Shown piece by piece: positions 5,178-44,822 of a DNA stretch of 46,562 bases (positions are counted from its first letter, which is position 1; each line of letters starts with the position of its first letter). The DNA lies in assembly GCA_011391125.1 (NCBI GenBank), contig JAABRE010000041.1:1-46562 (forward strand), written 5' to 3'. The translations under genes were made by a program, and so were the position numbers. The notes below the pieces were generated by a model. It searched no databases. It was not told the DNA's origin and saw nothing but the letters and a program-made list of their open reading frames with translations. The DNA is from Synechococcales cyanobacterium S06 (GTDB lineage Bacteria; Cyanobacteriota; Cyanobacteriia; Cyanobacteriales; JAABRE01).

Positions 5178-7103
5178 ATGTTTAAAAATATGAGAGAAAT
5201 TTTAGCTCATTGGTGGTCAGAATTTACGTTACAAACTAAACTAATGGCTGCTGCAACTTTAGCAGTTTCCTTGTTAATGAGTGGTCTTACCTTCTGGGCA
5301 GTCAATACAATTCAACAGGATGCTCGTTTTAATGATACTCGTTTTGGTCGCGATTTAGGGTTACTATTAGCGACGAATACTGCGCCCATGTTAGCGGAAA
5401 ATAATCTCACCCAAGTCGCTAAATTTTCCCATCGTTTTTATCACAGTACATCCAGTGTACGTTATCTGATTTATGCCGATCAAGATGGGGATATTTTCTT
5501 TGGTATTCCCTACTCAGAAGCGGTAGTTGAAAATTCACTCACTATTAAACGTCGCATCCAATTACCTGATAATTATAACCCCAATTCAGAACTTCCTTTT
5601 GTTCGACAACATTTAACACCAAATGGGGAAATTACTGATGTTTTTATTCCCTTAATTTATGAGCATAAATATTTAGGAGTATTAGCAGTTGGGATTAATC
5701 CCAACCCCACCGTGGCAGCTTCTTCAACATTAACAAGGGATGTCACCATCGCCGTATTTGTCTCCATTTGGGCTATGGTAATTTTAGGAGCAGTTTTTAA
5801 CGCTTTAACGATTACAAAACCGATTAAAGAGTTAGTATTAGGGGTAAAGAATATAGCAATTGGAAACTTCAAGCAACGAGTAGATTTACCATTAGGAGGA
5901 GAATTAGGGGAGTTAATTTATAGCTTTAATGAAATGGCGGAAAAATTAGAACGATATGAGGAGCAAAATATCGAAGAATTAACCGCAGAAAAAGCCAAAT
6001 TAGAAACCTTAGTTTCCACCATTGCTGATGGTGCAGTTTTATTAGATACAGAATTGAATACTATTTTAGTTAACCCAGCAGCCAAAAAAATATTTGCTTG
6101 GACAGAAGAAAGTATGGTCGGAAAAAATGTCCTTCACTATTTACCTCCTGCTTTAACTGTTAAATTAACTCGTCCTCTTTATCAGATTATAAAAGGAGAA
6201 GATATTGTCACAGAAAATAACTTAGAAAATGAACCAAATTATTCACCTTTAGAATATAGAATTAGTTTAAATGAACCCAGTATTCGTACACTTAGGGTGC
6301 TTTTGAATAAGGTTTTTGACCAATCTAAAGAAAATATTAAAGGTATTGTGATCACAGTTCAAGATATAACCAAAGAAGTGGAATTAAACGACGCAAAAGG
6401 ACAATTTATCAGTAATGTTTCCCACGAATTAAGAACACCTTTATTTAATATTAAATCTTTTATAGAAACTCTCTGCGAATACGGCGAAGATTTAACAGAA
6501 ATCGAGAGAAAGGAATTTTTAGAAACTGCGAATAACGAAACAGATAGATTAACTAGACTGGTTAATGACGTACTAGATTTATCCCGTTTAGAATCCGCCA
6601 AAATTTATGAACTTAACCCCGTGGAAATTAACCAACCCATTGAACAATCTTTGCGGAATTATCAATTAAATGCCAAAGATAAAAAGATCGAATTAAGTGC
6701 GGAAATTGAAGAAAATTTACCCCAAGTTTTAGGGCATTATGATTTATTGTTGCAGTTACTAACCAATCTCATTGGTAATTCCCTTAAATTTACCGAATCA
6801 GGAGGCAAAGTAGCCGTAAAAGCCTATAAAATTCAATCTCAAAATACCTTTAATCAAGTAACTAAAATTCGGGTAGAAATAGCAGATACAGGAATAGGAA
6901 TTGATCAGGAAGATCAAAATGCAATTTTTGAGCGTTTTTTCCGGGTAGAAAATCGAGTACATACCCTAGAAGGTACTGGTTTAGGTCTTTCAATCGTGAA
7001 AAATATTATCGAAAAACATCACAGTCGAATAAACTTAATTAGTGAAGTGGGTCTCGGTACAACTTTTTGGTTTGATTTAGATATTTTTACCGTTGATAAT
7101 TAA
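5178..7103 (+). CDS. nblS: NblS/Hik33 (DspA) sensor histidine kinase
   Basis: A 641-aa membrane histidine kinase matching the cyanobacterial NblS/Hik33 family (plastid Ycf26). Order of parts: TM1 about 22-43, a periplasmic sensor loop about 44-188, TM2 about 189-210, HAMP about 211-262, a PAS domain about 270-400, the HisKA H-box ISNVSHELRTP with H416, then the ATPase N box (LLTNLIGNSLKF, 527-538), G1 box (IADTGIGI) and G2 box (GTGLGLSI). The family senses high light, cold and nutrient stress, acts mainly through RpaB, and controls nblA, hli and psbA genes. nblA lies 38 kb away at 43439-43627. ATG 5178 is the probable start, with an alternative ATG at 5190. The last codons (TVDN) and the stop lie in a degenerate repeat. 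Confidence 0.93.
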   Translation: MFKNMREILAHWWSEFTLQTKLMAAATLAVSLLMSGLTFWAVNTIQQDARFNDTRFGRDLGLLLATNTAPMLAENNLTQVAKFSHRFYHSTSSVRYLIYADQDGDIFFGIPYSEAVVENSLTIKRRIQLPDNYNPNSELPFVRQHLTPNGEITDVFIPLIYEHKYLGVLAVGINPNPTVAASSTLTRDVTIAVFVSIWAMVILGAVFNALTITKPIKELVLGVKNIAIGNFKQRVDLPLGGELGELIYSFNEMAEKLERYEEQNIEELTAEKAKLETLVSTIADGAVLLDTELNTILVNPAAKKIFAWTEESMVGKNVLHYLPPALTVKLTRPLYQIIKGEDIVTENNLENEPNYSPLEYRISLNEPSIRTLRVLLNKVFDQSKENIKGIVITVQDITKEVELNDAKGQFISNVSHELRTPLFNIKSFIETLCEYGEDLTEIERKEFLETANNETDRLTRLVNDVLDLSRLESAKIYELNPVEINQPIEQSLRNYQLNAKDKKIELSAEIEENLPQVLGHYDLLLQLLTNLIGNSLKFTESGGKVAVKAYKIQSQNTFNQVTKIRVEIADTGIGIDQEDQNAIFERFFRVENRVHTLEGTGLGLSIVKNIIEKHHSRINLISEVGLGTTFWFDLDIFTVDN

Positions 7104-39559: not shown

Positions 39560-40579
39560 ATGAGTAAATCATATTTGATCATATCGTTAAGTTTGTTATT
39601 AATGGTTTTAGGTGGTTGTAAAGATTCAAAAAAGGCTGAACAACCCACGGAAAAACCTCCCCAAACCACGGCCAATCAAAACAAACAACCCGAAAAACAG
39701 GACTTTAAAGATCCTCTGGAAAAGGGTGAAACTCCAAGTCGGTCAACGGTTGTTACTTCCACTTTAATTCCAGCCACCAATCCAGATCAACGGGCGAATT
39801 CTGTGCCGAAAGGTTCTAGTAGTCCCAATCGTAATCCTTTTGGGGTAATTATACCTCCTATTTTCCTTCCTGAAGAATCGAATGACATTTCACCCTTACC
39901 GGAAAGTGGGGATAATAATAGTTCTGGGGGACAAACAACTACTGGTAAAACAACTACTGGTAAAACAACTACTGGTAAAACAACTACTGGTAAAACAACT
40001 ACTGGTAAAACAACTACTGGTAAAACAACTACTGGTAAAACAACTACTGGTAAAACAACTACTGGTAAAACAACTACTGGTAAAACAACTACTGGTAAAC
40101 AACGCAACAGACCAGTTATCCAACAAGAAAATCCCATTGCTACTACTTCTGGTTTAAATCGAACTCCCTCCTCACAGAAAAGTCTTCCCGGTAATATTAT
40201 CGTACCACCACCACCAATTGCGATTATAGATGTCACACCAGACTTTCCCAATAATCCTTCAGGAAAATTACCTAATCGAAGGGGTATTCCCTATGTAAAA
40301 CCTGATTTTAGTTTAAATCCAGCTCCTAAACCTGAACCAGATCAGGCCAGACAAGTGGTTATAACTGGTATTATTGACATAAATGGGATAAATCATGCCA
40401 TTGTCAAAGCTCCTGGAGAAAAGGATAGTCGCTATGTCAAAGCTGGTGATCTTCTTGCCAATGGAATGGTGTTAGTGAAACAGATTGACACCAATAGCAA
40501 TAAAGTTACTTTAGAACAATTAGGCCAAAATGTCGAATTAGCCATTGGCTCAAATAGTAGTGCATCAAAGACTAATTAA
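39560..40579 (+). CDS. Lipoprotein with eleven TTTGK repeats
   Basis: A 339-aa protein. The signal peptide ends in a lipobox VLGGC (C20), so the mature protein should be lipid-anchored. A low-complexity Pro/Ser/Asn region is followed by eleven perfect TTTGK pentapeptides (39935-40099), then more linker. The C-terminal folded part (about 270-335, VVITGIIDINGINHAIVKAPGE, RYVKAGDLL and so on) has the look of a small beta domain such as those in secretion/pilus assembly lipoproteins, though that is only a shape impression. A good Shine-Dalgarno sequence lies upstream. The following 84-aa gene starts 26 nt later and is probably in the same operon. Confidence 0.78.
   Translation: MSKSYLIISLSLLLMVLGGCKDSKKAEQPTEKPPQTTANQNKQPEKQDFKDPLEKGETPSRSTVVTSTLIPATNPDQRANSVPKGSSSPNRNPFGVIIPPIFLPEESNDISPLPESGDNNSSGGQTTTGKTTTGKTTTGKTTTGKTTTGKTTTGKTTTGKTTTGKTTTGKTTTGKTTTGKQRNRPVIQQENPIATTSGLNRTPSSQKSLPGNIIVPPPPIAIIDVTPDFPNNPSGKLPNRRGIPYVKPDFSLNPAPKPEPDQARQVVITGIIDINGINHAIVKAPGEKDSRYVKAGDLLANGMVLVKQIDTNSNKVTLEQLGQNVELAIGSNSSASKTN
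39935..40099 (+). repeat. Eleven perfect 15-bp repeats coding TTTGK
   Basis: The unit ACAACTACTGGTAAA is repeated 11 times with no mismatches, in frame within the lipoprotein gene. Base-perfect identity points to recent slippage or conversion. Confidence 0.95.
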
Positions 40580-43396: not shown

Positions 43397-43415
43397 AAGG
43401 AGGTTGTACCTCCTT
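43397..43415 (-). terminator. nblA terminator
   Basis: On the minus strand AAGGAGGT-ACA-ACCTCCTT is followed by ATTTTTATG. This 8-bp stem and T-rich tail lie 24 bases beyond the nblA stop codon. Confidence 0.75.
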
Positions 43416-43438: not shown

Positions 43439-43627
43439 TTACACACTGGGTTCTAATCCCCACTGATGTTTAATGAACTCTTTATACATATTTTCCCTGA
43501 CAATCATCTGTTCATAGAGTTTGACCAAAAAATCCTGTGCCTGTTCCCGACTCATATTCGCAACCTGAGTTTCAAAGGACCGAAGACTAAATTGCTGTTC
43601 TAAAGTTAATTGTATTGGTTCTGACAT
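43439..43627 (-). CDS. nblA: Phycobilisome degradation protein NblA
   Basis: A 62-aa NblA-family peptide (MSEPIQLTLEQQFSLRSFET..., with NMSREQAQDFLVKLYEQMIVRENMYKEFIKHQWG in two parts). The LTLEQ opening, the helix-turn-helix and the ENMY...KHQWG C-terminus are the family hallmarks. NblA binds phycobiliproteins and recruits Clp protease so that phycobilisomes are dismantled under nitrogen or sulfur starvation and high light. ATG 43625-43627 is preferred: GAGGAG lies 5-8 nt upstream, and the upstream ATG at 43655-43657 would add ten unlikely residues. The promoter region carries HLR1- and NtcA-type sites, and nblS lies in the same window. Confidence 0.9.
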   Translation of the reverse strand: MSEPIQLTLEQQFSLRSFETQVANMSREQAQDFLVKLYEQMIVRENMYKEFIKHQWGLEPSV

Positions 43628-43686
43628 CATCCACTCCTCACTATTTTTTTGATTCATACTCTTGTTTTAACACAAGTAATTAACAA

Positions 43687-43743
43687 TGTGTAAAGAAATG
43701 TAAAAAAAGATTGACAAATTTTAGATTTTGTACATTTAGTTAC
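43687..43743 (-). promoter_or_regulatory. nblA upstream region: HLR1-like repeat and GTAN8TAC site
   Basis: On the minus strand, TTTACATTTCTTTACA (43689-43704) is two TTTACA hexamers separated by four bases, close to the RpaB-binding HLR1 consensus. TTGTCA at 43712-43717 with TTTACA at 43689-43694 gives a 17-bp spaced -35/-10 pair overlapping it. At 43730-43743 there is GTA-N8-TAC, the NtcA palindrome. These positions relative to any start site are unmeasured, and single-site matches are expected by chance in AT-rich DNA. Confidence 0.5.
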
Positions 43744-44342
43744 TTTTTGAGTAAGGTAAAGCCAACAAAAATAATTGTAGTTAGACTGATAATTATTCAG
43801 GTTTGTCTTCCCTACCATGATGTTTTAACAAGAGAATCCGAGAAAAAATGTTAAAAATGAACGAAAACTAGAAACTAAAGAGAAAAAAATTTTCACAACG
43901 ATCAAAATTATCTCTATTTATTAAATAAAGTAATTAATGATATAAATAATCATTATCTTAAGCAAGAAAAGTTCAGCAAAAAAAATATAAATAAAAAAAT
44001 GGTCAAGGAGTGTTAAGATTCTGTAATAATCTTTTGAGAATGAAAAGTCTGACGAGTTTAGCGAGTAATGATTTCAAAAACTTAAACTTGAAATAAATTT
44101 GCAAAATCTCGGCACTTTAAGAGGGAAAGAAATTTTGACGGCCAAGTCCGATATTACGAAAAATAGTCAAGATTGTCAAGGAATGCGGTTGGCCGTACTC
44201 TTTTGGCCTATTGAATTAATAAAATTTTTCCTCGGAAACCTCGTCCACAGAAATATGGACGAGGTACTTTGTCGTTTTCCATTAATAACACAGTGTTTAA
44301 ACCACTAACAAATTTTTTATATCAATCTGGAGGTATCTCTAA
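43744..44342 (+). promoter_or_regulatory. Long structured leader upstream of the RNA-binding protein gene
   Basis: About 600 bases without a gene. Stem arms ACGGCCAA (44138-44145) and TTGGCCGT (44189-44196), and the hairpin CCTCGTCCA/TGGACGAGG (44239-44264), point to a folded RNA leader. A Shine-Dalgarno sequence (GGAGG) lies before the ATG at 44343. The more distant half is AT-rich with no recognisable feature. Confidence 0.5.
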
Positions 44343-44822
44343 ATGTCAGTACGTTTATATGTAGGTAATTTACCCAAAGAAATTATTGAAAAAGATGCAT
44401 TGCAAACTTTATTTGCAGATGAAGCCAATACAATTTCCACCAAGGTCATCAAAGACCGTAAAACAGGTAAATGTCGTGGTTTTGCTTTTGTCACCGTTCC
44501 TACTGATGAATCTGCCGATGAATTTATTGCCAATTTTAATGGTCAATTCTTCATGGAGAGTGAATTAAAAATCGAAAAAGCTTTACCTAGAGAGAAAACC
44601 AAGGGTAAAGACGAAGAAGGTGGTCAGGAGGAGGAAACTGTTGCTAAGGTTGTAACTCCTCCCACTACTGCTGAAAAACGCCAAAAAACCAAGCGTAATC
44701 CTAAAAAACCAGGAGCTACGACTAATCAAGCATCAGTTTCCTCGGATTCTGTACAACCAGATCCCCGTTGGGCTGCTGACTTAGCCAAGTTAAAAGAAAT
44801 GTTATTGGCTGTCAATAACTAA
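44343..44822 (+). CDS. RRM-type RNA-binding protein, Rbp3-like
   Basis: A 159-aa protein. One RNA recognition motif (about 3-80) has RNP2 LYVGNL and RNP1 CRGFAFVTV. A charged linker (about 84-140) is rich in Glu, Lys and Pro, and the C-terminus PDPRWAADLAKLKEMLLA matches the tail of the longer cyanobacterial Rbp3 type. Rbp3 was reported to help target photosystem mRNAs to thylakoids, so a similar role is plausible. Short Rbp proteins lack this tail. The gene stands alone and has a long leader that may confer cold or post-transcriptional control. Confidence 0.88.
   Translation: MSVRLYVGNLPKEIIEKDALQTLFADEANTISTKVIKDRKTGKCRGFAFVTVPTDESADEFIANFNGQFFMESELKIEKALPREKTKGKDEEGGQEEETVAKVVTPPTTAEKRQKTKRNPKKPGATTNQASVSSDSVQPDPRWAADLAKLKEMLLAVNN

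Follow-up and report, generated by a model that had tools for sequence, protein, structure and literature searches.

The nblA gene in the window, the 46,562-nucleotide stretch of DNA that we analyzed, very likely carries an RpaB repressor site (HLR1) that is built into its core promoter. RpaB is known to repress nblA through HLR1 (PMC4390884, PMC11633204, PMC13421787, PMC6331805), and the window is another instance of this published control. The preliminary description of this DNA had proposed that RpaB at an HLR1-like repeat and NtcA at a nearby GTAN8TAC palindrome jointly control the gene. The RpaB half of the proposal is well supported by the conserved position of HLR1 over the inferred -10 box and start site. 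The NtcA half is not, as the palindrome is unconserved and would lie about 4 bp off the -41.5 position; judged from its sequence context, the palindrome most likely does not function as a site for NtcA. The features are listed in Table 1.

Table 1. Coordinates of the features discussed in the text
Feature	Position in the window	Strand	Basis
nblS, kinase acting on RpaB	5178..7103	plus	NF045911, 1132 bits, cut-off 1000
Intrinsic terminator 3' of nblA	43397..43415	minus	8-bp stem, -10.9 kcal/mol, z -3.3
nblA coding sequence (MSEPIQLTLEQQFSLRS...)	43439..43630	minus	PF04485, alignment of relatives, ribosome-binding site
HLR1-type candidate RpaB site, TTTACATTTCTTTACACA	43687..43704	minus	17/18 positions
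29-bp element of the nblA promoter, here TTGTCAATCTTTTTTTACATTTCTTTACA, T0 = 43717	43689..43717	minus	Consensus match
Inferred transcription start, ~43691	43689..43693	minus	Nostoc 7120 start vs T0 in Nostocaceae genomes
Inferred -10 box, TACATT	43697..43702	minus	TAnnnT at the aligned position in 76/80 promoters
GTCAA box, a helical turn 5' of HLR1	43711..43715	minus	80/80 in the non-redundant alignment
-35 box position, TCTAAA, weak	43720..43725	minus	TTGACA-like hexamers at the corresponding place in relatives
Candidate NtcA palindrome GTAN8TAC, a probable chance match	43730..43743		Exact; not conserved

The nblA gene, its HLR1 motif and the regulators encoded

The nblA gene is present as a single copy in a genome-wide search. 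Its product contains the NblA domain (PF04485, E 1.3e-25, 92.4 bits vs a cut-off of 25) and is 61-81% identical to NblA of 13 relatives in the alignment. The reading frame ends at the stop codon at 43439 and likely begins with the ATG at 43630, which is preceded by a GGAG ribosome-binding site (43631-43641); an ATG at 43657 is an alternative upstream start. A long intergenic stretch (43658-44342) separates nblA from a divergent gene for an RRM RNA-binding protein (44343-44822). On the minus strand of this stretch, TTGACA-N17-TAATAT (44179 to 44151) has the look of a promoter and may serve nblA as a distal one; a strong hairpin (44238-44265) precedes the RRM gene. Elsewhere, the open reading frame at 39560-40579 contains a tandem repeat of 12 bp, which codes for about 11 TTGK units. 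No Rfam family scored above threshold in the window.

The TTTACA-N4-TTTACA repeat that had been pointed out upstream of nblA is exact at 43689-43704 on the minus strand, and it is the sole zero-mismatch match to this pattern in the window. The 18-bp HLR1 consensus (KTTACAWWNNKTTACAWW, i.e., KTTACAWW-N2-KTTACAWW) is matched there with one mismatch, and no other site in the 46.6 kb matches with one mismatch or fewer. When the 143 nt upstream of nblA were shuffled with dinucleotide composition preserved, such an HLR1 match arose by chance in 1.1% of the shuffles, and an HLR1 match together with GTAN8TAC arose in 0.06%.

Genome-wide, HLR1 with at most one mismatch occurred 131 times, compared with 60 for the reversed pattern, and a dispersed repeat makes up part of the excess. 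This dispersed family, built around TTGTCAAG-N4-TTGTTACAAAACTTAAYA and often with ATACATAAAAC in front, was read at 30 loci in the window's genome (G000; e.g., L118-L144). Its copies are intergenic, with some lying within a repeated coding segment, and HLR1 counts in this genome are therefore inflated. A search of the same genome for a regulon of the promoter element described below gave 43 matches vs 3 in controls, but these were mostly the dispersed repeat and the repeated coding segment, and we do not take them as evidence.

Both RpaB and NblS are encoded in the genome. The nblS gene is in the window, as had been stated, but about 36 kb from nblA, so that its co-location with nblA carries little weight. 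RpaB (396 bits vs a curated cut-off of 330) and NtcA (377 bits vs a curated cut-off of 245) are encoded elsewhere in the genome. Compared with the HLR1 sites of nblA and hli/scp in Synechocystis 6803 and S. elongatus 7942, the window has the same gene, the same 18-bp motif, the same place over the putative -10 and start region and the same kinase, NblS. It differs in that the first half-site starts with T, where G is usual, and in having a weak -35 box and an adjacent GTAN8TAC that was unseen in relatives.

Conservation of a 29-bp promoter element and the geometry of the promoter

Alignment of nblA upstream regions had been set beforehand as the test of both motifs. The sample of 105 distinct promoters was drawn from 30 genome loci plus 80 named loci, with none of the relatives belonging to the window organism's own family. 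A 29-bp consensus, TTGTCAAAYNNTTGTTAYATTYTKTAATA, was matched at 20 or more of its 29 positions in 102 of the 105 promoters from diverse cyanobacteria, and the HLR1 of the window is the 3' part of this element. In the open papers of a limited library, we found no description of deep conservation of the whole 29-bp element with its GTCAA box. The element is missing from a few nblA promoters, namely those of G012 and other genomes of family f13, and L009.

The position of HLR1 is conserved in the orthologous promoters. Among 79 non-redundant relatives, with the window excluded, the HLR1 score peaked at the register of the window (12.06 of 16, vs a mean of 6.35 and s.d. of 0.95 over all offsets; z 6.0). 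Perfect HLR1 sites (18/18) were found at this register in G018 and in G035, which has a Synechocystis-like tandem nblA pair, and 17/18 matches in G017, G036 and G005. One further genome encodes an NblA 100% identical to the S. elongatus sequence; its promoter (GTTACCTTGTGTAACAAT) has HLR1 at the same register (16/18), with GTCAA also in place. RpaB was reported to bind and repress nblA in S. elongatus (PMC4390884).

Since the relatives were aligned by the consensus itself, the conservation scores contain some circularity, which whole-genome pattern searches answer. In 40 relatives, the element pattern gave 37 matches outside the window's genome, of which 25 lay immediately in front of nblA, vs 2 in controls. 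In 217 Nostocaceae, a stricter pattern gave 120 matches, at most one per genome, and none in controls.

Two side observations concern related sequences. A zero-mismatch copy of the nblA-type element (TTGTCAAACATTTGTTACATTCCTTAACA; L115, G000:C82:16860-16888, locus 1501-1760) sits between glnB-like (P-II) and mtnA-like genes. The next 500 nt are without an open reading frame of at least 40 aa, a terminator-like hairpin lies about 210 nt past the inferred start, and no relevant Rfam family was found at this locus, which is a candidate light- or nitrogen-regulated small RNA. In many Leptolyngbya-, Coleofasciculus- and Trichocoleus-type loci (e.g., L036, L038, L045 and L052), an inverted repeat, TACCC-N4/5-GGGTA, lies just upstream of the nblA -35 box; it is possibly the site of another regulator, and it is absent from the nblA promoter of the window.

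The aligned promoters also indicated where the core promoter would lie. A TAnnnT hexamer is present at T0+15 to +20 in 76 of 80 promoters, and a TTGACA-like hexamer at T0-8 in relatives, as a perfect TTGACA in Microcystis (L073) and as TTGACG in the genome with the S. elongatus-identical NblA. In Nostoc 7120, one nblA start is at -106 (PMC6166021). Four genomes from a single genus of Nostocaceae have T0 at -130 to -134, and the comparison places the start at about T0+24 to +28. We infer that the promoter of the window consists of the -10 box TACATT, a start near 43691 and the weak -35 box TCTAAA. An alternative register, with TTGTCA at T0 as the -35 box and TAATA as the -10 box, was set aside as less probable because the Nostoc 7120 start, the T0 of the Nostocaceae and the hexamers of Microcystis and of the S. 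elongatus-identical-NblA genome all fit better with a -35 box at T0-8 and a -10 box at T0+15.

With this geometry, the TTTACA repeat covers the putative -10 box, in agreement with the preliminary description, and HLR1 would span about -13 to +4 relative to the start. RpaB acts as a repressor when HLR1 lies between -38 and +23 (PMC13421787), and the site would thus be inside the repression zone, where an HLR1 of the repressor class is expected around the start of a high-light-induced gene. In low light, NblS would keep RpaB phosphorylated, and RpaB would contact both TTTACA half-sites from the same side of the DNA; sitting over the -10 box and the start site, it would block RNA polymerase. In high light or under starvation, RpaB would be released and nblA transcribed.

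The same geometry raises the question of whether the element is mainly a core promoter (a TTGACA-like -35 box, a 17-bp spacer, a TAYATT -10 box and the start region) in which the likeness to HLR1 is incidental. The TAnnnT counts and the TTGACA-like hexamers at matching distance are as this explanation predicts, and the -10 box and start region do explain part of the conservation at the HLR1 register. The second half-site in most relatives is KTAATA or KTAACA and not KTTACA, so that the majority form is a degenerate HLR1. We nevertheless consider a mere core promoter quite unlikely: it leaves the near-invariant GTCAA in the spacer and the G of TTGTTA unexplained, perfect HLR1 sites occur at the same register in unrelated genomes, and the RpaB-regulated nblA of S. 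elongatus, as represented by the genome with the identical NblA, has HLR1 there.

The GTAN8TAC palindrome as a candidate NtcA site

The GTAN8TAC palindrome upstream of nblA is exact, as had been described. It raised the possibility that RpaB at HLR1 acts together with NtcA, which on nitrogen starvation would bind the palindrome and activate the gene in a class II-like manner. An action of NtcA on nblA has been reported for both S. elongatus and Nostoc (PMC4390884, PMC6166021, PMC4973221), and the poor -35 box of the window resembles those of activator-dependent promoters; however, many of the relatives have weak -35 boxes as well. At scpB of Synechocystis 6803, an NtcA motif lies directly upstream of HLR1, and NtcA binding was shown there and is thought to repress (PMC6331805). 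The window shares with scpB the order of NtcA motif, HLR1 and start, but its NtcA motif is unsupported.

The lack of conservation of the palindrome argued against this joint control. None of 101 aligned relatives has GTAN8TAC at the corresponding position; 7 perfect matches, scattered elsewhere, occurred over 16,546 tested positions. The mean palindrome score at the offset of the window was 1.13 of 6, below the average of 1.62 over all offsets. Among the closest nblA relatives that were readable, the only GTAN8TAC match was in G024, at T0-80, a different place. An NtcA site as a conserved feature was rejected both as GTAN8TAC and as the looser GTN10AC. In addition, a GTAN8TAC appears by chance in the 143-nt upstream region in 4.9% of dinucleotide shuffles, and the 5 copies in the whole window are at chance level (7.1 expected).

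The spacing would also be unusual. In NtcA class II promoters, GTAN8TAC sits some 22 bp away from the -10 box, with its center near -41.5. The window resembles these promoters in that an exact GTAN8TAC precedes a -10 box of the TAN3T form, but the distance to the putative -10 box is 27 bp and the center would be at about -45.5; the preliminary description had noted a spacing slightly longer than usual. On these sequence grounds, it is improbable that the palindrome functions as an NtcA site in this isolated lineage, and joint control through it is similarly unlikely. In model strains, both RpaB and NtcA are known regulators of nblA, and the general idea was right; the palindrome in the window gives no support for the NtcA half.

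The GTCAA box upstream of HLR1

All 80 of the 80 non-redundant promoters have GTCAA at T0+2 to +6, which is 11 bp before the first half-site of HLR1; selection for a good match inflates this count a little. Yet the box accompanies only 3 of 21 perfect HLR1 sites examined elsewhere in the window's genome, and at least one of the 3 is in the dispersed repeat. GTCAA is not part of HLR1 in general, and the box is accounted for neither by HLR1 nor by the core promoter. The open cyanobacterial papers covered gave no description of the TTGTCAAA box of nblA, which may nevertheless have been described elsewhere.

This pattern would fit a reading of GTCAA and GTTAYA, one helical turn apart, by a different regulator of the OmpR type (NblR, or a paralogue of RpaB such as SrrA), alone or with RpaB. 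NblR is needed for nblA induction, in a role that has been called enigmatic (PMC4390884), and an NblR-like protein is encoded in the genome (287 bits on a 205-aa partial sequence, vs a cut-off of 300). Against such a regulator, one genus of Nostocaceae has lost GTCAA but retained the remainder of the element. We regard its involvement as possible but rather doubtful. It is possible, though less likely than not, that most cyanobacterial nblA promoters have an nblA-specific composite operator of GTCAA and HLR1, which a second regulator, possibly NblR, or an extra RpaB subunit would read.

The analysis told a probable regulatory site apart from a probable chance neighbor at the nblA promoter, and the RpaB site of nblA keeps its place across distant cyanobacteria. 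If a composite operator does exist, GTCAA would mark the missing DNA site for the action of NblR, a regulator of nutrient stress, on nblA. The conserved box could offer a way to test what NblR does in phycobilisome breakdown, a role that is unsolved.
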